Source: Ignavibacteriales bacterium (GTDB lineage: Bacteria > Bacteroidota > Ignavibacteria > Ignavibacteriales > Melioribacteraceae). Taken from it: a DNA stretch of 64,000 nucleotides. The stretch lies in assembly GCA_021740915.1 (NCBI GenBank), contig JAIOYW010000013.1, positions 1 to 64,000 on the forward strand, in the 5' to 3' direction. This document shows positions 35,565 through 48,744 of this stretch, in pieces. Under the pieces are notes generated by a model that worked only from the letters and a program-made list of their open reading frames with translations, was not told the origin of the DNA and did no database searches. How positions within the stretch are numbered: the first letter of the stretch is position 1; each line of letters starts with the position of its first letter. Position numbers and translations under genes: made by a program.

Positions 35565-36455
35565 ATGGAATTCAAAAATTATTACCAGATATTAGGCGTT
35601 GAAAAGACAGCTTCTCCGGGTGAGATAAAAAAGGCATATAGGAAACTTGCGTTTTTATATCACCCCGACAGAAATAACGGCGACCCTTCTGCGGAGACTA
35701 AATTCAAGGAACTAAACGAAGCCTATGAGGTCCTTAGTGATCCGCTAAAAAGAAGCAAATATGACAATATGTCCGCAAATGCCTTCGCCTATAACCGATC
35801 CGGCTTTGGCAGAAAATACAGTTCGAATAGGGGTCCGACAAACTTTGATTTCAATGACTTGTTTGGAGGCAGATCATCTGGTTATTCGGATTTTTTTGAA
35901 TCATTTTTCCGTGAAACTTTCGGGAAAAATTCCGACTGGGATTCCGCTTCTAATCAGTTTAAATATGAATCATCAGAGCCGGTAGTGAAACTGAACGTGT
36001 CGGAAGCAATTAATGGTGCCGAAAAAAGAATAAATATTTATGGTTCAGCGCTCAGCATAAAAATTCCCGGAGGTGTTCGTGATGGTTCAGTTCTTAAAAT
36101 GAGAAATATTAATTCAGGGAATGAAATTTCTCTTAGGATTAAAATCGTTGACGATAAATATGAAATTAAAAGTTCGGATCTGTCGATCGAAGTGGACGCT
36201 GACATTTTTACTGCCGTTTTAGGGGGAGAATTATATTTTGAATCTCCGGATTCGAGGGTGATTTCATTCTACATAAATCCGGGTACCGATAGCGGTAAAA
36301 CGTACAAATTCACAGGGCTGGGCTTGTATAAAGACGAGAGCAAGAACCAAAGGGGTGATTTGTTTGTAAAAATCAGATTGACTGTCCCTAAAAAGCTGGA
36401 TGAAACCAGCAAAAAAGATTTTGCACTTCTTAAACGTAAAATCGGTCAAAAATAA
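35565..36455 (+). CDS. CbpA-like J-domain co-chaperone
   Basis: A 296-residue DnaJ-family protein. The J domain (about 1-66) has the HPD motif (33-35 in YHPDRNNGD). A Gly/Phe/Ser-rich linker (about 70-125) follows, then the DnaJ C-terminal substrate domains without a zinc finger, as in CbpA. It stimulates DnaK ATPase and delivers clients. DnaK itself is not in the window. The ATG at 35565 is chosen because the terminator occupies the region of an earlier ATG (35535). An ATG at 35559 would add two residues. It is followed by htpG after 66 bases. Confidence 0.9.
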
Positions 36456-36521
36456 TTTTATGGCGCTTAATTGTTATTTTAGTCGCTCCAATAATGAAAA
36501 GTTAAACTAACAGGAAAAAAT

Positions 36522-38423
36522 ATGACGGCAAATCAAAACACATTTGAATTTAAGGCCGAAGTTAAAAAACTTCTCGATATCCTTGTTCATTCTCTATATA
36601 CCAGCAAAGAAATCTTTCTGCGGGAATTGGTTTCCAATTCTTCTGACGCACTCGACAAACTGAGATTTCAATCAATTAGCGGAACTGAAATTACAGACAA
36701 GGATCTGCCATATGAAATTCATATAGATTTCGATGAAAAGGCTGCAACTATTACGGTCAGTGATCATGGTATAGGAATGACACGCGATGAAATCATACTA
36801 AATATTGGTACTATTGCAAAATCCGGGACTGAGGAATTTCTCAGACAGCTTGCCGAAAGCAAGTCGGAGGCAAACAATATAATAGGGAAATTTGGAATTG
36901 GTTTTTACAGCGTTTTTATGGTTGCAAAACAAGTTACGATTAAGTCCAAATCGTATAAACCCGATGAACCGGCAATCATTTGGAAATCTGACGGATTAGC
37001 TTCTTATGAGATATCAGAGATGGAAGAGCCAATGCAGCGAGGCACCATAATTGAAATCCATCTAAAGGATGACGCAAAAGAATTTGCAGAAAAATTCAGG
37101 ATTCAGTCAATTCTTAAAAAGCATAGCAGCTTTATATCTTTTCCGATTTTTCTTCAGAAGGAAAAAATAAATACGATAACAGCTTTGTGGCGAGAACCGA
37201 AATCTTCAATAAAACAGGAACAATATAACGAGTTCTATAAGTTTTTATCCTACGACATGGATGATCCCATGTTTACGTTGCATAAATCAGTAGATGCCCC
37301 GATTCAGTTTAACTCGCTGCTGTTTATTCCTAAAAAGAACGTTGAAATGTTCTGGATGAACCGCGATGAATATGGACTTGATCTTTACGTGCGCAGAGTT
37401 CTGATACAGCACAAAAACAAGGACCTGATCCCGGAGTACATGAGTTTTGTGCGCGGCGTTGTTGATTCTGAAGACCTACCCCTGAATATTTCAAGGGAAA
37501 CTCTGCAGGAAAACAGTGTTTTTATGAAAATATCATCCTCCGTTACAGGGCAAATACTGAATTTTCTTCTGGAAACGGCAAAGAATGAACCGGAAAAATA
37601 TGCCGAGTTCTGGAAAGAGCATGGAAAAATCTTCAAATTAGGTTATACGGACTTTACTAACCTTGAGAAGTTTAAGGATCTTCTGCGTTTTAATTCTTCA
37701 GCATCAGAAAGCGGAAACGATCTTACTTCCTTTGAAGAATACACTTCAAGAATGAAGGAAGGGCAGAAAGAAATATTCTATCTGAGCGGCAACAACCGAA
37801 GTGCTATTGAGCTTGATCCGCATCTTGAACTATTCAAGAAAAAAGGTGTCGAAGTTCTTTATTTCTTTGATCCGGTTGATGAATTTATTATTCCCTCTCT
37901 CAGAAAATATAAAGATTTCGAGTTTAAGTCTGCTGACACTAAAGACCTCAAGTCCCTTGATAAACTGGAAGATGTAATTGAGGACGATGATACCACAGAA
38001 AAACTCTCCAAAGATGATGAGAAACAATTCAGCAGTCTGCTATCTAAAATTAAAGCTATCCTTGGCGAAAAGGTAACTGAAGTTGTTGAGTCAAAAAGGC
38101 TGAAAGACAGCCCATCCTGCCTTATAAGCGCCGATGACGGATTTTCATCATCTATGCAGAAGATATTGAGAATGACCCACCAGGAAGTTGGAGCAACAGC
38201 CAAAATATTCGAAATAAACAAAAACCACCCGCTAACCCGCAACCTGCTTAAGGTATTTATAGCCGATGCTAATGATGATTTTATTCCTCAGACTGTGATG
38301 CAGCTGTATGAAATTTCTTTGTTGCTTGAAGGAAACCTTACGGATCCTCACGAACTCGTCACACGTACCAATAAAATATTAGAGAAATCGAGCGGCTGGT
38401 ATGTCGCCACAAAGAATCTTTGA
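36522..38423 (+). CDS. htpG: Hsp90-family chaperone HtpG
   Basis: A 633-residue HtpG, normal length. The N-terminal GHKL ATPase motifs are RELVSNSSDALDK (Glu/Asn for magnesium), DHGIGMT and GKFGIGFYS. The middle domain has the catalytic Arg region NISRETLQEN, and the C-terminal dimerisation domain ends in GWYVATKNL. It acts late in client folding together with DnaK and J-proteins, which fits its position at the end of the chaperone island. Preceded by AACAGGAAAA. Confidence 0.97.
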   Translation: MTANQNTFEFKAEVKKLLDILVHSLYTSKEIFLRELVSNSSDALDKLRFQSISGTEITDKDLPYEIHIDFDEKAATITVSDHGIGMTRDEIILNIGTIAKSGTEEFLRQLAESKSEANNIIGKFGIGFYSVFMVAKQVTIKSKSYKPDEPAIIWKSDGLASYEISEMEEPMQRGTIIEIHLKDDAKEFAEKFRIQSILKKHSSFISFPIFLQKEKINTITALWREPKSSIKQEQYNEFYKFLSYDMDDPMFTLHKSVDAPIQFNSLLFIPKKNVEMFWMNRDEYGLDLYVRRVLIQHKNKDLIPEYMSFVRGVVDSEDLPLNISRETLQENSVFMKISSSVTGQILNFLLETAKNEPEKYAEFWKEHGKIFKLGYTDFTNLEKFKDLLRFNSSASESGNDLTSFEEYTSRMKEGQKEIFYLSGNNRSAIELDPHLELFKKKGVEVLYFFDPVDEFIIPSLRKYKDFEFKSADTKDLKSLDKLEDVIEDDDTTEKLSKDDEKQFSSLLSKIKAILGEKVTEVVESKRLKDSPSCLISADDGFSSSMQKILRMTHQEVGATAKIFEINKNHPLTRNLLKVFIADANDDFIPQTVMQLYEISLLLEGNLTDPHELVTRTNKILEKSSGWYVATKNL

Positions 38424-38430
38424 TCATTAA

Positions 38431-38464
38431 AAATATCTGCAGGAAATTTTTCCTGCAGATATTT
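38431..38464. terminator. Bidirectional terminator between htpG and the ABC permease gene
   Basis: A perfect 14-base stem (AAATATCTGCAGGA / TCCTGCAGATATTT) with a 6-base loop, followed by ATTTTATC on the plus strand. Both flanking genes end within 10 bases of it. Confidence 0.9.
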
Positions 38465-38470
38465 ATTTTA

Positions 38471-39730
38471 TCAACCCTTTAACCCTGTGGTCGCAATTCC
38501 AGACATAATATATCTTTGAAAAAAGATAAATAACACTGCAATCGGGAGCATGCTCAGTGTTGCTCCGGTCATTATCAGATGATTATTGTCTGTATATGGT
38601 GAACGGAAATATTCAAGCCCAAGGGGGACAGTCCGAAGTTCCGGGCTATCGAGATAAATCAGAGGACCCATTACATCCTGCCATGTGGCAACAAATGTAA
38701 AAAGCCCCACAACAATCAGCGCCGGTATAATATTCGGTAAAATTATATTAAAATAAGTTCTGAATATACCGCAGCCATCTATAATCGCAGACTCATCGAG
38801 CTCTTTGGGAAGGGTAAGCATATATTGCCGTAAGAGAAAAACATTAAATGCTCCCGCAGTAAAATGCGGAACTATAAGTGGAAGGAAGGTATCAATCCAG
38901 CCAAGACTTTTGTAAATAGAAAACATGGGGATCAGTGTCACCTGTGCCGGTATCATTAATGTTGCAAGGAGTACAACGAACCAGAATTCTCTTCCCCGGA
39001 ATTTTAACCTGGCAAATCCATACGCGACAAAACTTGAAGATATTATCTGCCCTAAAATTGCCAACAGGCTGATAATAAAACTGTTTTTCATAAATGCCAG
39101 AAAACCTGTTGAATCACTGCTGTAGGTTGCTTCCGGTCCTTCAAGCGTTTCGGCATAGTTCTCCCATCTTGCATAAAATTCTCTGTGCTCCCGGTATCTG
39201 ATTCCACTCATCAGTCTGATTTCCGGACGGGGTGCGGGCTCAGCAGGCATAGTAAATAATAACTCTTCGTACCCGCCCTCCTTTTTTCTAACCATTCTGG
39301 CTACTGAAATAAAGTCTTCACCCGTCTCGCTGTTTTCATAAACCGGTATTTTTGTGAACTGAATCTCTTTCTCGTTCTCAACTTTCTGTAATAATTTACC
39401 GGAGGGAAACCACACGACTTGTTGCGATGGTAAATTCCCGTCAACGCGGAGATAATATGCCCCCGAACTGTCGGAATTGCTTAAAAGGTTTTCGGAATCA
39501 ATCAGGAGGAACCATTTTTTTTCTCCATCTGAGAATATTTTATTCCTGGCCGGAAGATTAAAATCCACTTTTTGAGCTCGGGCAGGATAAAATGCCGGAG
39601 GGTTCATGTTAATGCCTTCCCTCGATTTTACCGATGAGGTTACAACCCAGTAAAAGGGGAATGCCAGGAAAACTGCCACAACAATAAGCGCAGCATATAG
39701 CAAAACAAGTCGAAAATATTTCCTTTTCAT
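38471..39730 (-). CDS. Sugar ABC transporter permease (MalG-type) with large periplasmic insertion
   Basis: A 419-residue permease of the MalG/CUT1 group, well above the usual 270-280. The first helix (about 7-28) is followed by about 170 extracytoplasmic residues (about 30-205; for example NLPARNKIFSDGEKKWFLL) before the typical five-helix domain. The cytoplasmic EAA loop is DESAIIDGCGIFRTYFNIIL, which contacts an ATPase. The ATG at 39730 is chosen because it overlaps the upstream stop as ATGA. The frame is open further upstream but lies inside the neighbouring gene. The insertion may contact the fused binding domain of its partner or the sugar. No ATPase gene is nearby, so a shared MsmK-type ATPase is probable. 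Confidence 0.88.
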   Translation of the reverse strand: MKRKYFRLVLLYAALIVVAVFLAFPFYWVVTSSVKSREGINMNPPAFYPARAQKVDFNLPARNKIFSDGEKKWFLLIDSENLLSNSDSSGAYYLRVDGNLPSQQVVWFPSGKLLQKVENEKEIQFTKIPVYENSETGEDFISVARMVRKKEGGYEELLFTMPAEPAPRPEIRLMSGIRYREHREFYARWENYAETLEGPEATYSSDSTGFLAFMKNSFIISLLAILGQIISSSFVAYGFARLKFRGREFWFVVLLATLMIPAQVTLIPMFSIYKSLGWIDTFLPLIVPHFTAGAFNVFLLRQYMLTLPKELDESAIIDGCGIFRTYFNIILPNIIPALIVVGLFTFVATWQDVMGPLIYLDSPELRTVPLGLEYFRSPYTDNNHLIMTGATLSMLPIAVLFIFFQRYIMSGIATTGLKG

Positions 39731-42135
39731 TGCGGCGCCGAGTTTACAAATTTTCTGGAGAATTTTAATTGTATCATAGTTACAAGGAAAATTATGAGAA
39801 ATAATAGCATTGCATATGCGCAAGCTTTTCCCATATTGAGATTATTAAACGCCTCGTCATAAATATTAACGCTGTAAAATCTTAATGCATCCCCTGGCTC
39901 ACCGATTGTCGAACTTCTTTCAGCAAAAAACAATGCGGGCGTAAAAACCTGGAATGCTCCTATGGTTGACATAATACTCATAAAAACTATTACCGGAGCT
40001 AAGTTGGGTATTGTTATTGAAATGAATTTCCGGAAAAAGCCCGCGCCATCAATTTCTGCGGCTTCATATAACGATGCAGGTATTTGTTTCATTCCCGCAT
40101 AATATATTATCATTGCTCCGCCTACCCAGAAAATATTCATGATAACAACAGCAGCAAATGCGTGCTGTTCATCAAGCCAGTTTACAGGCGAGATACCGAA
40201 AAACCCAAGAAAATAATTTACAACACCATATTCTATGTTATACATATTATACCATAAAACCGCAGCGGCTGCCCCGGTAAAAAGCGACGGGAAATAGAAT
40301 GCGGCTTTAAAGAACGCTGTGCCCCTAATATTAAATGTCAGAAGTCCGGCAGTAAAAAGTCCCCCGAAAAAAGAAATCGGGATCGTAAGCAGCGCATACT
40401 TTACTGTCCTGTCGAGCCCGGTAAAAAATCTGTTGTCATTGAAAAGATTAACATATTGTTGAACCCCGATCCATTTAGGAGGACTAATCATATTCCATTC
40501 GGTAAAGGATAGTACAAATGCAGCAAGTATAGGCCCTAGAGTAAAACAGAATAGTCCGATAAGCCAGGGAGAAATTGTAATGTATCCGCCTGCGTCTGAA
40601 TACCGCCCATTTCCGGTCACCTTTTCCTTGTTCCTATGGATAAAGTAGAGGTAATAAATGGCGGCAGCGATAATTAAAAGCACAATAACTATAGGCAGAA
40701 TCACTCTTACAAATACGCCAGGGTCTTTCCTTTTTCCAAGCTGAAAAGCCTCGTCATAATACGAACTGAGTAAGGGCAAATATTCATGTACTTTCTTCTC
40801 AATAAATTTATCCATGTGGGAAGTAAATTTCCGATAATCCCCGTCGAGTATTTTCCCATTTGTTCTGGGTATCAATATAAATTTTGCATCATACTCCGCA
40901 TTGATTTCAGTTTCCATCCGAATACGCCATTTATCAAATACAGGGACCAGATAGTTATTGTCTGTGGTGAGACCAGGAATAGCATAATCCAGATCATAGA
41001 AAAAAGCTTCAACCCCTTTGGCGCCATAATCATTGTGCAACATTGCCTGCTTTGCTGCCTTAAGAGATGGTACGCCTCTCAATCTGCGGGCATATACGCC
41101 CTGAGCAAACTCACCGGCAAGAAATTGTATCAGCCGCCATGATTGCTCTGGATACTTTGTCCCCGAAAAGATTCCCACAGCATTTACAGTAATAAAGGGA
41201 GCGTGAGAATCGGCATAAGGAACTGGGGACAGTGCATAATTCTGACCGTCCTTTTCAAGATTTCTTAAAGTCCACGGACCGTCAACACCCATTACAAATT
41301 TATCGGAATAAAGCAGAGAGCTGAGATTCACATTTGCTGCCCGAAGCGGAAGGTCGCCGAGATGACCCCGATCACCATATTGAAGTTTGAAAATCTCGGA
41401 AAATCCTTTCTCAAGTGCCTTATTTCCTTTGATCGTGGTTTTTGTCGGCTGAATATATTGGTCCATCAATTCACCACCATATATCCTGAACATATATTCA
41501 TCCCACGCCAACCCGCCAACCATTCCATACTGAGAAAATGAGCCATCCGGATTACGCAAAGTCATTTTCCGGACAAGCTTTTTGAATTGCTCCCAGTGCA
41601 TTGGTTTATCCACCCTGGGCCAGTCTTTGCGGGAAATTCCCGATTGTTCAAGTTTATATGGTTTATAAATTAGAACCCGGGTGGGTATATCAACCGGAAA
41701 AGTAAACAGCTTGTTATCCCAGAGGCAACTTTCAATTGCCTTTTTGTGGTAAAGATTCAGATCGAAGCCGGAATTCTTAATCAGATCATCAAGAGGCAGC
41801 AAAGCGCCCCGTGCTGCCCAGACACCGATTATCCCGGAAAAAAGCGTTAGCACATCCGGAGCCAGACCCGAGCCAGACTGCACCTGTAGTTTTGCCCAAT
41901 ACTGCCCCCATGGATAAACAGATACCTCGACTTTTATGTCCGGGTTTTCTTCAACAAATTTTTCGAAAATAATCCTGCTGTATTCCACTTCGCCAGCTTC
42001 GCCGTATTGGGTAAACTTGATAAGTATCTTCTCTCCTCTAAAGTTTTTATTCTCGAAGATTTCACCAGCATACGAATCCCGGGAACTGAAGAAGAAGAGT
42101 AAGATGATCAAACAACTTGAAAAAACTCTATTCAT
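39727..42135 (-). CDS. ABC sugar importer: solute-binding protein fused to MalF-type permease
   Basis: An 802-residue fusion. After a signal sequence (about 1-23) comes a family 1 extracellular solute-binding domain (about 35-440; FEKFVEENPDIKVEVSVYPW, SGLAPDVLTLF, VMGVDGPWTLRNL). A helical linker leads to a transmembrane anchor (about 477-500) and a complete MalF-like permease (about 525-795) with EAA loop LYEAAEIDGAGFFRKF. Normally these are two proteins. The fusion tethers one binding domain per transporter. It shares an ATGA overlap with the second permease gene. It is divergent from GH130 across 109 bases, so it probably imports the oligosaccharide that GH130 cleaves. Confidence 0.92.
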   Translation of the reverse strand: MNRVFSSCLIILLFFFSSRDSYAGEIFENKNFRGEKILIKFTQYGEAGEVEYSRIIFEKFVEENPDIKVEVSVYPWGQYWAKLQVQSGSGLAPDVLTLFSGIIGVWAARGALLPLDDLIKNSGFDLNLYHKKAIESCLWDNKLFTFPVDIPTRVLIYKPYKLEQSGISRKDWPRVDKPMHWEQFKKLVRKMTLRNPDGSFSQYGMVGGLAWDEYMFRIYGGELMDQYIQPTKTTIKGNKALEKGFSEIFKLQYGDRGHLGDLPLRAANVNLSSLLYSDKFVMGVDGPWTLRNLEKDGQNYALSPVPYADSHAPFITVNAVGIFSGTKYPEQSWRLIQFLAGEFAQGVYARRLRGVPSLKAAKQAMLHNDYGAKGVEAFFYDLDYAIPGLTTDNNYLVPVFDKWRIRMETEINAEYDAKFILIPRTNGKILDGDYRKFTSHMDKFIEKKVHEYLPLLSSYYDEAFQLGKRKDPGVFVRVILPIVIVLLIIAAAIYYLYFIHRNKEKVTGNGRYSDAGGYITISPWLIGLFCFTLGPILAAFVLSFTEWNMISPPKWIGVQQYVNLFNDNRFFTGLDRTVKYALLTIPISFFGGLFTAGLLTFNIRGTAFFKAAFYFPSLFTGAAAAVLWYNMYNIEYGVVNYFLGFFGISPVNWLDEQHAFAAVVIMNIFWVGGAMIIYYAGMKQIPASLYEAAEIDGAGFFRKFISITIPNLAPVIVFMSIMSTIGAFQVFTPALFFAERSSTIGEPGDALRFYSVNIYDEAFNNLNMGKACAYAMLLFLIIFLVTMIQLKFSRKFVNSAPQ

Positions 42136-42146
42136 AAATCATTTAA

Positions 42147-42156
42147 CGAAATATCG
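42147..42156. promoter_or_regulatory. CGAAATATCG copy in the divergent sugar-locus promoter
   Basis: This 10-mer is the exact reverse complement of the three repeats in front of dps. It lies 11 bases upstream of the importer start and 88 bases upstream of GH130. It is a single copy, close to the start codon, and may be chance in AT-rich DNA. Confidence 0.25.
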
Positions 42157-42244
42157 AAATAAAATTTGGCTGATTAAATCATCTATTACTGCATTTCAGA
42201 CATTTATTTTTATTTTTTGAAAGTTTTTATGGTATTAATATCCT

Positions 42245-43222
42245 GTGGTGAAAATACGTAATTTTGTAAAATATCTTAATAAATTAGAGCTTGAATTGCA
42301 GCTGGAAAAAGAATTACTTATACGTTATACTCAAAATCCAATTTTGAATTTTAAAGATGTGCCTTATAACTGTAACGCTATTTATAACCCGGGGGCGGTT
42401 AAGTTTGGTGTAAAATATCTTCTTCTGCCGCGGGTTGAAGATGGAAGGAGAGACAACAAACTTCACGTCGCCCTTTCTGATGACGGAATTAATTATGAAT
42501 TATCCCCTGAGCATATACCGATGATTCCCACGAATGATGGTCTTCCTGAAAGGCACATGTACGATCCTAGAATCACTTATCTTGAAGGCAGCTATTATAT
42601 TACATATTGTTCACAGGATAACAGCAGTCTTGTACGGATAGGTTTGCTAAAAACTGAAGATTTTCAGGTGTTTGACAGAATTGGGTTTATTACTCCGCCA
42701 TGGAATCGCAATTGTGCACTTTTCCCCGAAAAAATCAATGGTCAGTATGTTAAAATTGAAAGACCGATGTATGGTAATGAGTTTTTTAATATGATCTCAT
42801 TTTCTCCTGATCTTATAAACTGGGGAAACCACAAACTTATAAAACTCGAAACACAGACCTGGTTCGGAGAAAAATGGGGCGCTGGTCCTCCGCCGATTAA
42901 AACAAAAGATGGTTGGTTACAGATTATCCATGGTGTCTTTCTGGCATGCAATTATGTTTACCGGATTGGTGTGATACTTTTAGATCTCGAGGAGCCTTGG
43001 AAAGTTGTGGGGCAATGCCCTGAGTTTATTCTTACCCCAAGGGAGGATTACGAAAGAACCGGTGAGACAATAAATTGTGTTTTTTGCAACGGTGTTATTC
43101 CCGAACCAGACGGCACAATTAAAATTTATTACGGGGCAGCCGATACTTCTATTGGTCTTGCCTTTGGCAGAATTGATGATCTTATCAATGCATGTAAATA
43201 TGACATGATGAATAATAAATGA
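42245..43222 (+). CDS. Glycoside hydrolase family 130 phosphorylase
   Basis: A 325-residue five-bladed propeller enzyme of GH130, whose members phosphorolyse or hydrolyse beta-mannosides (beta-1,4-mannooligosaccharides, mannosyl-glucose, mannosyl-GlcNAc). The catalytic Asp is in MYDPRIT (Asp107). NPGAVKF, LPRVEDGRRDNKL, GWLQIIHGV and IKIYYGAADTSIGLAF are family blocks, with the phosphate-binding Arg/His candidates present. It has no signal peptide, so it acts in the cytoplasm on imported sugar. The start is GTG, with a second GTG right behind it. Its stop overlaps the acyltransferase start (ATGA). It is divergent from the importer. Confidence 0.92.
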   Translation: MVKIRNFVKYLNKLELELQLEKELLIRYTQNPILNFKDVPYNCNAIYNPGAVKFGVKYLLLPRVEDGRRDNKLHVALSDDGINYELSPEHIPMIPTNDGLPERHMYDPRITYLEGSYYITYCSQDNSSLVRIGLLKTEDFQVFDRIGFITPPWNRNCALFPEKINGQYVKIERPMYGNEFFNMISFSPDLINWGNHKLIKLETQTWFGEKWGAGPPPIKTKDGWLQIIHGVFLACNYVYRIGVILLDLEEPWKVVGQCPEFILTPREDYERTGETINCVFCNGVIPEPDGTIKIYYGAADTSIGLAFGRIDDLINACKYDMMNNK

Positions 43223-44478
43223 TTAACATAGCAAAAAGAATCGGATCAATTGATGTTTTCCGGGGAATAACAATCTTCCTCATGATCTTTGTTAACGACG
43301 TTGCTTCTGTTACGGGAATACCCGCGTGGTTAAAACACGTTCCCCAGGATAAATTTGGCATGACTTTCGTTGATGTTGTTTTTCCAGCTTTCCTCTTTAT
43401 AGTTGGAATGTCTATTCCATTTGCTCTGGAAAAACGTCTAAATAAAACTCAGTCCAGGATTCATGTGCTTTGGCATATTATTACTAGGAGTGTTTCTCTT
43501 CTTATTATTGGAATCCTCATGGTTAATATTGGCCGGTTTGACGCTGTCAGTTCAGCAATCGGAAAAAATCTTTGGGCTTTCCTGATGTTTTTCAGTGTTA
43601 TTCTGTTATGGAACAGGGGTGTTAATAGTCGGGAAGGACTCCGTCATCCGAGCTTAAAAATTGAAAAAGGCCGGTTCAAAAAGATCTTTCACTCTGCAGA
43701 ACTCTCTTTTCTGAGCAGAGGTATTGGTCTGATCATTCTTGTCCTGTTAATTATTATTTATAGGGGAAATCCGAGCGGAGGTTCTGTTTGGTTTGTCACT
43801 TCCTGGTGGGGTATCCTTGGTTTAATAGGCTGGGCTTACTTATTTGTTGGCGTAATTTATCTTTTGAGTTCCGATAAAACAAGAGCAATGTATCTGTCAT
43901 TGATTGTTTTTATTCTGCTTTATTATGCTGATAAATCCGGGCAGCTAAAATTTCTATATCAATTCACCGAAATAATCTGGATTGGCGGTCACATTGGCAC
44001 ACATGCTGGAATAGTAACAGCGGGTGTACTATTTTCAACATCTCTTCAGAAAACTATAACCGGAGAAACGACTGCTAAAGTTTTTATCAAAACAGGATTA
44101 GTGCTTTCAGTGGTACTTTTTATCACAGGATACCTGACTCAGGGTGATTTTGACATTAATAAAACCCTTGCAACCCCCTCCTGGGCGCTTTATTCAATCT
44201 CAATATGTATGCTGATTTTTTTAGTCCTGTATTATTTAATTGACATCAAAGGAGGCGGCAGATACTTTTCTTTTTTCAAACCTGCCGGGTCAAATCCTCT
44301 GCTCGCCTATTTACTTCCGGATGTATATTACTTTGGATCCTATCTTCTCGGTTTTAATTTCTTCAAAGCCATATCCGGAAATTGGATTTCGGGAATTGCC
44401 GTTTCGATAATTTTTTCTGTGTTGATGGTTTATCTGACAAAATTTCTTGGCAGCAAAGGAATTAAAATGAATTTATAA
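43219..44478 (+). CDS. DUF5009 / NagX-like membrane acyltransferase (HGSNAT family)
   Basis: A 419-residue protein with about ten to eleven transmembrane helices, related to heparan-alpha-glucosaminide N-acetyltransferase. The N-terminal signature RIGSIDVFRGITIFLMIFV is followed by PAFLFIVGMSIPFAL. Family members transfer acetyl groups across the membrane to amino sugars or have unknown transport-linked roles in glycan loci. The conserved transmembrane His of HGSNAT could be the one in KHVPQDK, but this is uncertain. Translation is coupled to GH130 by a four-base overlap, which points to a mannose/amino-sugar-containing glycan substrate. Confidence 0.85.
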   Translation: MINIAKRIGSIDVFRGITIFLMIFVNDVASVTGIPAWLKHVPQDKFGMTFVDVVFPAFLFIVGMSIPFALEKRLNKTQSRIHVLWHIITRSVSLLIIGILMVNIGRFDAVSSAIGKNLWAFLMFFSVILLWNRGVNSREGLRHPSLKIEKGRFKKIFHSAELSFLSRGIGLIILVLLIIIYRGNPSGGSVWFVTSWWGILGLIGWAYLFVGVIYLLSSDKTRAMYLSLIVFILLYYADKSGQLKFLYQFTEIIWIGGHIGTHAGIVTAGVLFSTSLQKTITGETTAKVFIKTGLVLSVVLFITGYLTQGDFDINKTLATPSWALYSISICMLIFLVLYYLIDIKGGGRYFSFFKPAGSNPLLAYLLPDVYYFGSYLLGFNFFKAISGNWISGIAVSIIFSVLMVYLTKFLGSKGIKMNL

Positions 44479-44495
44479 AAATGTTCGAGGTTAAA

Positions 44496-46637
44496 ATGCG
44501 TTTAACTATTATTCGGCTGTTATTAATTATCGTTTTCTTTGCGGGTTCTGGTATTGCTCAGAAAGGGCTTTACGATCCTTATCCGGGAGAAGCGGAGAAA
44601 TCGCGTGCTGCTGATGCCGGGAAAATGTGGACGCTTGATAAAGTGCCCGTTGAGCAGTTCCAGAAACTTTATGGCTTCACTCCCGATGAAACATGGCTTA
44701 CGGATGTAATGAATTCTGCACTCATGTTCGGTTCCGGTTGCTCGGGATCATTCGTTTCGGAAAACGGGCTTATTATGACCAATCACCATTGTGGGAGACG
44801 TGAATTAGTCGGTGCTTCAAGAGATGGTGAAGACTTGCTGAAAACTGGATTTTATGCTGAAAGGATGGAGGAGGAGAGAAAAATTGAAGGATTATACATT
44901 GATCAATTGCTTCTTATTAAGGATGTGACCAATGAAGTGATTAATGCCTTTAATTCAGGCAGCAGTGATCCTGAAAAACTTTTGAAATCCAAAGAAAAAA
45001 TTTCTGATTTGGAGAAAACCTTTGGGGAAGAAACCGGACTGCGCTGCGTTGTAGTAAAACTTTATAATGGCGGCAAGTATTCACTCTATGGTTACAGGCG
45101 TTATAGTGACATCAGGTTAGTGATGGCTCCTGAATTTCAGATTGCTTCAACCGGATGGGACTGGGATAATTTCACCTATCCCCGTTATGAATTTGATTTT
45201 ATGTTTCTCCGGGCTTACGATGAATCCGGAAACCCTGCTAAAACTCCATCCTATTTTAAATGGAGTCTGGAAGGTGCTGTTGAGGGCGAACCTGTTTTTG
45301 TAATTGGAAGACCTGGAAATACCGACAGACTTCTCTCTGTCGCAGAACTCGAATATTTGCGGGATGTAATATATCCCCCTTTGCTTCAATTATATAATGG
45401 ACTATATGAAGTCTATTACAAATTGTTTTTACAGTATCCGGAAAAGCAATCGCATTACCTTAATTCTGTGATGGGTTTCGGAAATTCGAGGAAAAGTATT
45501 GGCGGTTCGCTTATGGCTTTACGCGATGAAGCTATTATGAGCAGAAAAAAAGATTTCGAGAGTAAACTTAGATCTGCTGTCGGAAATGATCCTGAACTGA
45601 AGGCAGAGTATTCCCATCTGTGGACTGATCTTGCCAGTCTTCTTGATGAAGGAAGAGAATATATGAGGTTTATTTATGCCTACCGGATGATGGGCGGACT
45701 TGAATCTGAGTACTATTCCTTCGCCAGAAAAATCATGGAATATGCAAACGAGATCAAAAAACCATCAGCCGAACGCAAAGAAAAGTTCCAGGATCACAAT
45801 GTTGAGGCAGCTCGTCAGGAATTACTTGATACTCGGTTCGATTCCGAGCTGGCTGATCTTTTGCTTGAATCTCATCTTAATTACATAAGTAAAGTGGGAG
45901 GCGCTGACGATCCGATTCTAAAAAAAATATCAAATGGCGATTTTTCTCCCGGGCTTGTTGAGCGGATTAAAACCGGGTCTGCTATTCTTTCGCCGGATAA
46001 ACTAAAAGTAATGTTGGAAGGCAATCCTTCCGATATCTTAATCAGCGATGATCCATTTATTTATTTCCTGACAGAAAGCAATAAAAAACTCACCGAAATT
46101 CAGCCTCGTGCAAAGGAGATATCTGATTCAAAAGAGGTACTGAATCAAAAACTCGGGCAATTGGTTTTTAATGTTTTTGGAGAGTCACTTTCTCCAGATG
46201 CTACTTCTACTCTGCGAATTTCCGATGGAAGAGTTGAAGGATATGAATATAACGGAACACTTGCTCCTGCCAAAACAACTCTTTATGGACTTTATGATCG
46301 ATTTTGGTCATTCGGCTCAAAAGATTATCCCTGGGGTCTTCCAGATCGTTGGAAATCTATTCCGCCGGCTGTCGATTTAAAAACCCCTGTAAATTTTGTG
46401 TCCACAGCGGATATTGTTGGCGGCAATTCCGGCAGTGCAATTATTAATATGAATCGTGAAATTGTCGGTCTTGTCTTCGATGGAAATCTTGAGAGCTTAG
46501 CTGGTGATTATATTTATCTGCCCGAGGTAAACAGGTGTGTTGGGGTTGATTCTCATGGACTTATTACCGTGTTACAGCACTATTACAATGTTGAGCGACT
46601 TGTTCGTGAACTAAAAGGAAAAAATACAGAGGATTAA
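44496..46637 (+). CDS. Exported S46-family dipeptidyl peptidase (DPP7/DPP11-like)
   Basis: A 713-residue S46 serine exopeptidase, a family largely restricted to the Bacteroidota group and relatives. After the signal peptide (MRLTIIRLLLIIVFFAGSG) the chymotrypsin-like domain has the catalytic His in IMTNHHCG (about 94-100) and Ser in GGNSGSA, and a helical domain lies between. FDGN after the Ser block corresponds to the substrate-pocket region, where Gly is typical of DPP7-like hydrophobic specificity and Arg of acidic-specific DPP11. This suggests the former. The ATG at 44496 is preferred because GAGG lies 5 bases upstream. An ATG at 44481 is possible. Confidence 0.93.
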   Translation: MRLTIIRLLLIIVFFAGSGIAQKGLYDPYPGEAEKSRAADAGKMWTLDKVPVEQFQKLYGFTPDETWLTDVMNSALMFGSGCSGSFVSENGLIMTNHHCGRRELVGASRDGEDLLKTGFYAERMEEERKIEGLYIDQLLLIKDVTNEVINAFNSGSSDPEKLLKSKEKISDLEKTFGEETGLRCVVVKLYNGGKYSLYGYRRYSDIRLVMAPEFQIASTGWDWDNFTYPRYEFDFMFLRAYDESGNPAKTPSYFKWSLEGAVEGEPVFVIGRPGNTDRLLSVAELEYLRDVIYPPLLQLYNGLYEVYYKLFLQYPEKQSHYLNSVMGFGNSRKSIGGSLMALRDEAIMSRKKDFESKLRSAVGNDPELKAEYSHLWTDLASLLDEGREYMRFIYAYRMMGGLESEYYSFARKIMEYANEIKKPSAERKEKFQDHNVEAARQELLDTRFDSELADLLLESHLNYISKVGGADDPILKKISNGDFSPGLVERIKTGSAILSPDKLKVMLEGNPSDILISDDPFIYFLTESNKKLTEIQPRAKEISDSKEVLNQKLGQLVFNVFGESLSPDATSTLRISDGRVEGYEYNGTLAPAKTTLYGLYDRFWSFGSKDYPWGLPDRWKSIPPAVDLKTPVNFVSTADIVGGNSGSAIINMNREIVGLVFDGNLESLAGDYIYLPEVNRCVGVDSHGLITVLQHYYNVERLVRELKGKNTED

Positions 46638-46695
46638 TTGATTAAGAAACCTTTCGATGTTTTTCTTTTGTTGTTTATAAAAACAGGGATAAATA

Positions 46696-48744
46696 ATGAC
46701 AAATTATTCGTTACGCAAATTTTCATTCGTCTTTATAACTTTATTACTGCTTGCAATTCAGTTAAAAGCAGTTGGCGGATTCACAATTTATGATCTTTTT
46801 AAACTAAAGCAGTCCGGAGATGTTGTTTTTTCTCCCGACGGTAAAAGTGCAGCATATTTGCTTACTGTCCCGCGACCCTTTACAGATGATCCTGGTTCAG
46901 ATTACTCCATTCTGAATTTACTTGATCTTAGCAACAATAAAGTTACAGTTCTTATTGATGGCAAGATCAATATCTCTTCATTGCATTGGAACGGCAGTTC
47001 AGAAAAGATATTTTTTCTTTCTGCTCTTGATGGGGAAAAATCCAGAGGAGTTTATAGTTATGATCTAAAAACCAACGATTACACCAGACTTACGGCATCT
47101 GGTATTGATGTCAATCTGTATAAAGTCAGTCGGGATGGAATTATTCTGGCATATTCTTCAGTTGGAATTAAGGAACCCTCTTCGAAACTTGTAAAAATGG
47201 GCTTTAACCAGGAAATTTTTGAGGAAAAAGAAAATCATATTAACCTCTACCTGTATAATCTCAAAACGAAAACGACGAGTCAATTGACGAGAGAAATTTC
47301 AGTTTTTGATTTCTCCCTGAGCAATGACTCAAGAAAGATCGCTGCGGCTGTTGCCCCGGAAAATCTTACTGATCATTCATATATGTTTAAAAGGATAATC
47401 GAAATAGATGTGGAATCTGGAGCGGTACAACAACTTGTTGATAATCCGGGTAAACTAGGGGAATTTATTTACTCCCCGGATGACAAACATCTTGCATTTG
47501 TTTCTGCTGCCGATACTAATGACTCTGTTGCCGGCAGTCTCTTTATTGCTGAAAGTGGTAAATTTAACAAGTTTAAAACTCTTCGCAGTTATTCTAAAGA
47601 GTTTTTGGGATCGGTTACAAATATTGACTGGTTTGATGCGGTAACTGTGCTGTTTTCTGCAGAAGAGGGTGTAAACACTACTCTTAGCAAACAAATAATC
47701 GGAGAAGTCTCCAGGGAAATAATTATAAAGGGTGATGACCACATATTTTCCGGTTTCAGCCGATATGAAGAAAACTTCATTTTTTCGGCAAACACCGATA
47801 AATATCCAAACGAAATACACTTTTATGATGGAAATGTGATTTCCAGGTTAACAAATCATAATGAGTGGCTGAAAAATATAAATCTTGCCAAACAGGTAAA
47901 GATTGAATATACTGCTAAAGATGGTCTTGAGATCGAAGCCGTACTCATTTATCCGCTTGATTACACTGAAGGGCAGAAATACCCTCTGATAACATATGTT
48001 CACGGAGGACCTGAATCCGCCGAACTTGATGGCTGGCGGACTTCTTACAGCCGGTGGGGGCAGTTTGCAGCCTCGGCAGGTTATTTTGTCTTTATGCCGA
48101 ATTACCGCGCCAGTGCCGGACGGGGTTATGAATTTTCCCTGATGGGCCTTGGCGACCTTGCAGGCAAAGAATTTGACGATATACTGGATGGTGTTGATTA
48201 TCTCATTGATAAAGGGTACATTGATAAAAACCGTGTGGGAATTGGAGGCGGTTCTTACGGGGGTTATTTTTCTGCATGGGCAGCTACGAAACACTCTGAA
48301 AAATTTGCTGCAGCAATTTCTTTTGTCGGTGTCTCCAATCAGATATCCAAACGATACACGACTGATATTCCATGGGAAGATTATTACGTCCATTGGGGTA
48401 TCTGGACACATGATAACCCCCTTCTGATTTATGACAGAAGTCCGGTAAAATATGCACGCAATTCAAAAACACCAACACTGATTTTACATGGCACTGCTGA
48501 TCCAAGGGTTCATCCTTCGCAGAGCCTGGAACTCTACCGATCACTAAAAATGCATGGCAAAGCTCCTGTGCGACTTGTCTGGTATCCCGGGGAGGGTCAT
48601 GGCAACAGAAAAAATCCGGCGCGCCTTGATTTTGCATTGAGGACAATGGCTTGGTTTGATTATTATCTGAAAGGAACAAATCCGGAAAATTCAATGCCGG
48701 AATCTGAAATCACATATGATCTGAAATTACTTGGAATTGATTAA
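46696..48744 (+). CDS. Exported S9-family peptidase (second paralogue)
   Basis: A 682-residue S9 peptidase with a signal peptide (about 1-25), TolB-like propeller repeats (about 30-400; VVFSPDGKSAAYLL, FIYSPDDKHLAFVS) and a C-terminal alpha/beta hydrolase domain. The triad is Ser in GGGSYGGYFSAW, Asp in HGTADPRVHP and His in PGEGHGNR. It likely trims short peptides together with the S46 enzyme immediately upstream, so this pair forms a periplasmic peptide-degrading unit. It is only distantly similar to the S9 enzyme at 15595. Confidence 0.94.
   Translation: MTNYSLRKFSFVFITLLLLAIQLKAVGGFTIYDLFKLKQSGDVVFSPDGKSAAYLLTVPRPFTDDPGSDYSILNLLDLSNNKVTVLIDGKINISSLHWNGSSEKIFFLSALDGEKSRGVYSYDLKTNDYTRLTASGIDVNLYKVSRDGIILAYSSVGIKEPSSKLVKMGFNQEIFEEKENHINLYLYNLKTKTTSQLTREISVFDFSLSNDSRKIAAAVAPENLTDHSYMFKRIIEIDVESGAVQQLVDNPGKLGEFIYSPDDKHLAFVSAADTNDSVAGSLFIAESGKFNKFKTLRSYSKEFLGSVTNIDWFDAVTVLFSAEEGVNTTLSKQIIGEVSREIIIKGDDHIFSGFSRYEENFIFSANTDKYPNEIHFYDGNVISRLTNHNEWLKNINLAKQVKIEYTAKDGLEIEAVLIYPLDYTEGQKYPLITYVHGGPESAELDGWRTSYSRWGQFAASAGYFVFMPNYRASAGRGYEFSLMGLGDLAGKEFDDILDGVDYLIDKGYIDKNRVGIGGGSYGGYFSAWAATKHSEKFAAAISFVGVSNQISKRYTTDIPWEDYYVHWGIWTHDNPLLIYDRSPVKYARNSKTPTLILHGTADPRVHPSQSLELYRSLKMHGKAPVRLVWYPGEGHGNRKNPARLDFALRTMAWFDYYLKGTNPENSMPESEITYDLKLLGID

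Follow-up and report, generated by a model that had tools for sequence, protein, structure and literature searches.

Does a sugar importer in which the substrate-binding protein (SBP) is fused to one permease, and in which the partner permease carries an extra extracytoplasmic domain, operate as an interlocked machine with a working cycle of its own, or does it combine two separate modifications of an ordinary transporter? The question is raised by two adjacent genes (positions 38471 to 42135) in a stretch of 64,000 nucleotides from an Ignavibacteriales bacterium (assembly GCA_021740915.1, contig JAIOYW010000013.1, positions 1 to 64,000), the whole of which is called the window here. An initial annotation of the window had suggested that the two additions may interlock to give a tethered importer with a different working cycle. 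To judge by the relatives of the two genes, the paired architecture is real, it is rare in the genome samples, and it is stable where present. Fusion of an SBP and insertion into a MalG-like permease are each known already; the rare pairing of both is the new aspect, and the locus adds a testable substrate assignment for a cluster that contains a GH130 gene.

Architecture of the two genes

The features of the importer are the following, all on the minus strand.

39727..42135, minus strand: fused SBP, anchor and MalF-like permease gene, 802 amino acids, stop included (open reading frame list, Pfam, alignment of relatives)
42064..42135, minus strand: putative signal-peptide-like N-terminus, residues 1-24 (by reading, a hydrophobic stretch followed by AGE)
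40726..42063, minus strand: substrate-binding domain, residues 25-470, its end placed by eye (Pfam SBP_bac_1; PDB sequence relatives)
40630..40713, minus strand: anchor helix, residues 475-502 (hydropathy of 3.0 at residues 475-493; model helix at 474-502)
39730..40593, minus strand: MalF/UgpA-like permease domain, residues 515-802 (Pfam BPD_transp_1; NCBIfam)
40006..40065, minus strand: EAA coupling loop of the MalF half, residues 691-710 (EAAEIDGAG...P pattern)
38471..39730, minus strand: MalG-like permease gene with the insertion, 419 amino acids, stop included (open reading frame list, Pfam, relatives)
39653..39709, minus strand: first transmembrane helix (TM1) of the MalG half (hydropathy)
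39167..39583, minus strand: extracytoplasmic insertion, residues 50-188, predicted to be all-beta (alignments, hydropathy, model)
38735..38794, minus strand: EAA coupling loop of the MalG half, residues 313-332 (ESAIIDGCG...P pattern)

SBP, anchor and MalF-like permease do form one chain of 802 residues, as initially annotated: Pfam places SBP_bac_1 (residues 55-342, E 4e-31) and BPD_transp_1 (residues 589-795, E 4e-9) in a single frame, and one strong hydrophobic helix (residues 475-493 by hydropathy) separates the SBP from the permease. The signal-like N-terminus has low conservation among relatives. In the PDB, the sequence relatives of the SBP are oligosaccharide-binding proteins and those of the two permeases are the permeases of MalFGK2 and LpqY-SugABC; the NCBIfam models UgpA, GlcT and MalF match the permease half of the fused chain, every one under its cut-off. 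PDB entry 6ffl ('Maltose/maltodextrin transport permease homologue') matches the fused chain across the SBP and may be the SBP of another SBP-MalF fusion. Position 40725, near which the initial annotation had considered that a stop or frameshift artefact might lie, is the junction of SBP and anchor (residue 470); the frame is open through this codon, and four relatives align across the junction uninterrupted. The MalF permease part, only 288 residues long, can be aligned across about 285 columns to unfused MalF proteins, which have about 300 residues; no P2-type domain (about 180 periplasmic residues between TM3 and TM4) was found in it by hydropathy or alignment. The AlphaFold2 model of the fused chain is mediocre (mean pLDDT 63, pTM about 0.4), and its comparison with known binding proteins gives TM-scores to the target of 0.37-0.47, with rmsd mostly about 15.

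The second chain is a MalG/UgpE-like permease (BPD_transp_1 at E 2e-16 in Pfam), the ATG of which, at 39730, overlaps the stop of the fused gene by four bases (ATGA). A 450-residue frame that begins with TTG (to 39823) is probably too long, as relatives start in the same way as the 419-residue frame from the ATG. The insertion, of about 139-140 residues, follows a PPxxYP segment after TM1 and lies ahead of a WENY motif. Thus the extra domain that was annotated after helix 1 is present, but the size of 170 residues given for it falls between the insertion and the whole TM1-TM2 loop, which by hydropathy measures about 190 residues versus about 50 in ordinary relatives. AlphaFold2, applied to the whole MalG chain, models the insertion as nine strands with pLDDT of 65-85 across the block, from which an all-beta domain is predicted; the model of the chain is poor overall (mean pLDDT 61.3, pTM 0.43), and its structural matches (VIA-align) cover mainly residues 177-416. 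No Pfam match to the insertion was found at E 1 with four of the five insertion sequences then known, and a profile search found no convincing PDB relative, the only two matches up to E 10 (the better one at E 1.2) being to unrelated molecules. Invariant columns of the insertion number 25 over five sequences, and 19 in an alignment that includes the one from genome G1179.

Occurrence of the paired architecture

Fusion and insertion occur together and collinearly in six genomes: the window genome (G000), three genomes of one genus of the same phylum outside the window's class (G013, G034, G131), a metagenome-assembled genome titled Proteobacteria (G395, locus L017), and a genome from a different family of the window's order (G1179). 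The fused chain of the five others is 45-57% identical to that of the window, and the MalG chain 57-60%. The survey of relatives proposed at the outset thus finds the two additions inherited together, and because the same SBP-MalF join is conserved in all five relatives, an assembly error or frameshift that joined two genes has a negligible probability and is ruled out.

The pair is rare in every sample searched. With the MalG chain as query, full-chain matches of at least 57% identity were found in four of the 395 phylum genomes (G000 counted), besides one more long match, at 31%, in G390 (locus L065), which carries a different insertion. In the phylum of G395 a profile search gave a full-length match in one of 299 genomes, G395 itself, the profile having come from an alignment (A1) of which the L065 part is probably misaligned. 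A profile of the insertion (A5) matched in three of 114 genomes from the order of G013, one of 274 from the class of G395 and two of 391 from the window's class, in samples that overlap and include the genomes that supplied the profile; the sole new genome from these searches was G1179. A pattern scan of genome contigs returned 19 relatives with a full-chain match in L017 only, and none of the 344 plasmid records matched by tblastn has a single place covering 80% of the MalG chain.

Fusion and insertion as separate traits

The idea that fusion of an SBP to MalF is itself rare was considered and is rejected: at least ten other fusions exist in the phylum sample, and fusions, the window type included, are present in at least 13 of the 395 genomes. 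Reading the open reading frames at 19 loci with a long reported MalF frame, chosen among the matches listed, identified nine true single-frame SBP-MalF fusions (738-791 residues), each in its own genome, and ten loci with separate frames. A second fusion, of 746 residues, is found in the window genome itself (G000:C26:69992-73076, which is L070:9993-13077), beside an ordinary MalG of 292 residues in an overlapping frame; it has the same order of SBP and MalF, and the window chain is about 25% identical to it. Every one of the eight other fusions with MalG in view has an ordinary MalG (277-317 residues) outside the long-loop set, the MalG of two more (L147, L154) being outside the DNA stretch examined. 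The C26 fusion is adjoined by a GH13-like and an MFS-like frame, both named by eye. At four other loci (L144, L146, L150, L157), SBP and MalF are in the same frame with one stop codon between them, so that a single stop loss would yield a fusion; choosing these loci by the length of their frames makes it likelier to meet such an arrangement.

Insertions in MalG likewise occur without the fusion. A long TM1-TM2 loop is present in 18 of 120 distinct MalG frames examined, which is no frequency since the frames were partly picked for length. The 18 comprise five of the window type, L065, ten with an insertion of 68-69 residues in the phylum of G395 (L122, L128, L129, L132, L134, L169-L173), and two with about 189 residues (L176, L177). 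Most of the 68-69-residue insertions share a GYDxPLPLY...VRRxG...AQMVDP pattern and seem to be a separate family. The L065 insertion is a longer version of this family (E 2e-9), and L065 was therefore dropped as a relative of the window type; as its MalF frame is still open where the contig stops, it cannot count as unfused, and its genome is listed as 13% contaminated. A comparison by hhalign detects no homology between the window insertion and the 69-residue family (only 11 columns aligned, at E 0.055), L065 or L176/L177. No SBP domain is found in the MalF frame at the 12 loci of the 69-residue family and L176/L177; this frame is closed within the examined DNA at five of them (L128, L129, L169, L172, L173) and reaches the edge at the remaining seven, so that all five checkable loci have the insertion without the fusion.

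In Thermotogales, MalG1 and MalG2 are described as having a hydrophilic region of about 500 residues between TM1 and TM2 and a separate MalE gene (PMC2246101), which is the same insertion site as in the window MalG, a likeness by position only and taken from the description. As several insertions without detectable homology to one another and the Thermotoga MalG share this position, loop P1 of MalG is, on the sequence comparisons, a recurrent site for extra domains. By the same comparisons fusion and insertion are separable: the proposal that the two additions need each other, and with it a new working cycle, is not supported, in view of the eight fusions with an ordinary MalG, the five insertions beside an unfused MalF, and the Thermotoga MalG.

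Proposed working of the importer

We lean, by a little, towards a CUT1 (maltose-type) importer for beta-mannosides or mannose-containing glycan fragments, with the SBP tethered to the MalF half and with an ordinary cycle. The features of a type I importer of this class are present, namely EAA loops in both BPD_transp_1 halves, a family-1 sugar-binding domain and a MalK/UgpC-type ATPase in the genome, and ATP-driven sugar uptake is predicted. The SBP would be exported via its signal peptide and kept at the membrane by the anchor helix; the tethered SBP would capture the sugar and dock on the MalF/MalG pair to which it is attached or on one nearby, where the beta domain in loop P1 of MalG would form part of the docking surface; two copies of a shared MalK would bind the EAA loops and power the ordinary alternating-access cycle of type I importers; and a GH130 phosphorylase would split the imported sugar in the cytoplasm. 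The tether would raise the local SBP concentration, and the catalytic cycle itself is not expected to change. In E. coli and Salmonella, MalE is reported to contact MalG P1 and MalF P2 (PMC3150292 and a work cited there), and since the insertion sits in this same P1 loop, an interlock of insertion and SBP is plausible.

The known systems offer parallels to each part. MalFGK2-MalE of E. coli resembles the window importer in its related permeases, EAA loops, family-1 SBP and MalK/UgpC-type ATPase, and it has an extracytoplasmic permease domain in contact with the binding protein, of which the extra domain of the window importer may be a counterpart. In the E. coli system, MalE is free and MalF carries P2, whereas in the window importer the SBP is fused to MalF, P2 is missing and it is MalG P1 that bears the extra domain. 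OpuA and GlnPQ are SBP-fused ABC importers of other subfamilies, not known to have a MalG-type insertion, in which the binding domain is tethered to the translocator as it is here. Fusion of an SBP to a transport domain is reported as known in ABC importers (PMC8276074), and the MalF proteins of E. coli and of Thermotogales (MalF1/2) are described as of the eight-helix type with a P2 of about 180 residues between TM3 and TM4 (PMC2246101). A limited literature search found no description of an SBP-MalF sugar fusion, which is not evidence of absence.

Several observations weigh against this proposal. The joint part of MalF and MalG in MalE binding is, according to the same report, absent from the crystal structure then available (PMC3150292); fusion and insertion each occur without the other; and the insertion diverges faster than any other part of MalG, with 29-34% identity between lineages versus 75-78% for the MalG core. 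Mannose enzymes are not found beside every importer of this kind: the importer of G034 has GH95, DUF5009 and DUF4434 genes as neighbours, and beside that of G013 lie genes for a dihydroorotate dehydrogenase and for an SMC-like protein (the latter named by eye). Between G034 and G013, identity is 98.5% for the MalG core, 97.5% for the MalF part and 89.2% for the SBP but 67.9% for the insertion, and divergence of the insertion that outpaces that of the SBP argues against a finely fitted, conserved interface. Across lineages the SBP is 34-47% identical. In the closest pair, G034 and G131, the insertion has a ratio of nonsynonymous to synonymous rates (dN/dS) of about 0.15, compared with 0.03 in the SBP and 0.01 in the MalG core; only the signal sequence exceeds the insertion. 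The insertion is thus constrained, but less so than the SBP or the MalG core; such rates would allow co-divergence of insertion and SBP.

A possible but doubtful alternative sees in the insertion an accessory domain with no contact to the SBP (for example a contact to an envelope protein, a folding aid or a tolerated loop decoration) and in the fusion an ordinary SBP-MalF fusion. The fast divergence of the insertion speaks for this alternative, as do the independent occurrence of fusion and insertion and the presence at the same MalG site of at least three insertion families without detectable homology to one another (that of the window, the 69-residue family with L065, and L176/L177); the invariant positions of the insertion, its low nonsynonymous rate in the closest pair and its location in the MalG loop reported to contact MalE speak against it.

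Equally tentative is a further reading, in which the beta domain of MalG P1 would serve solely for docking, as the mirror image of MalF P2, so that the SBP would be held at both ends and would never leave the complex; because MalF itself carries the SBP, the extra domain that grips the SBP would have moved from the MalF half to the MalG half. If the insertion does grip the tethered SBP, the importer would be a natural single-complex system with SBP, permease and docking domain fixed together, an asset to structural studies of the MalE-MalFGK2 cycle, in which free MalE complicates the kinetics, and such a grip would explain the repeated appearance of seemingly unrelated domains in loop P1 of MalG.

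ATPase

The proposed CUT1 importer with its ordinary cycle requires an ATPase, and no ATPase gene adjoins the importer in the window, as had been annotated. The only full-length MalK/UgpC-type ATPase of the genome (C9:9814-10914) is unlinked; it scores 500 bits with the UgpC model (cut-off 432) and 423 bits with the MalK model, under the cut-off of 568, and the 28 other matches in the genome at E 1e-10 cover the ATPase core only, at 24-36% identity. Three CUT1-like permease sets are encoded by the genome (in the window, at about 70 kb of C26 and at about 31 kb of C31), none of which has a match to an ABC ATPase closer than about 13 kb. MsmK and MsmX are examples of one ATPase common to several CUT1 importers. 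With one full-length ATPase and three permease sets lacking their own, a shared MsmK-like ATPase is the simplest reading, and the C9 product probably serves the window importer and the other CUT1 sets, by the same kind of sharing but here deduced from gene count; the MsmK-type ATPase envisaged for the tethered importer has a candidate in this non-adjacent gene. The best matches of the C9 ATPase are in genomes with the paired architecture, at 65-66% identity in G013, G034 and G131 and 56% in G395. The ATPase gene of G395 is in L017 on the opposite strand, separated from the importer by a single gene, for an AraC-type regulator.

Neighbouring genes and substrate

Three further features flank the importer.

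42245..43222, plus strand: GH130 mannoside phosphorylase-like gene, divergent from the importer (Pfam, PDB matches)
43219..44478, plus strand: DUF5009/HGSNAT-like membrane protein gene, overlapping the GH130 gene (Pfam)
38431..38464, no strand assigned: 15-bp hairpin separating the importer from a convergent gene that looks by eye like htpG (terminator scan)

The importer probably takes up beta-mannosides or mannose-containing pieces of N-glycans, as suggested by the GH130, GH38, GH2 mannosidase and DUF5009 genes in the clusters of its relatives. The best PDB sequence matches of the window GH130 are TM1225 and beta-1,4-mannooligosaccharide phosphorylases. In G1179, the importer and a GH38 alpha-mannosidase gene are on one strand, and GH130, DUF5009 and a second GH38 gene are divergent from them; its GH130 and DUF5009 proteins are 64% and 41% identical to those of the window. 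The importer thus shares its cluster with GH130 both in the window genome and in G1179, where a GH38 gene separates the two, and blastp at E 1e-8 found no match of the window GH130 in the examined loci of G013, G034, G131 and L017. Downstream of the importer in L017 are LacI, a GH2 mannosidase-type gene and a TonB receptor; some kilobases from the importer in G013 are LacI, a CBM9-bearing protein and a galactokinase-like gene; and the G131 contig is too short to show neighbours.

It is improbable that GH130 is a chance neighbour and that the importer is for another sugar, such as glycan fragments that are N-acetylated or fucosylated. The neighbours described above for G034, the lack of any glycosidase gene adjoining the importer in G013, and the many oligosaccharides bound by the PDB relatives of the SBP, so that homology gives no specificity, are compatible with such a sugar, but the presence of 64% identical GH130 genes followed by DUF5009 in two families of the order, the two GH38 mannosidase genes in the G1179 cluster and the GH2 mannosidase gene near the L017 importer all point to mannosides.

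DUF5009/HGSNAT-like proteins are encoded near importers at 43219-44478 of the window, at L189:14579-15886 and at L066:14266-15732 (the genomes including G1179 and G034); a possible role would be the acetylation of glycan pieces. No Rfam match was found in positions 36000-47000. In scans for promoters and terminators, terminator-like sites are not in excess (4 versus 3.8 in shuffled sequences) and promoter-like sites number 17 versus 10.5. The 15-bp hairpin at 38431-38464 is possibly a shared two-way terminator.

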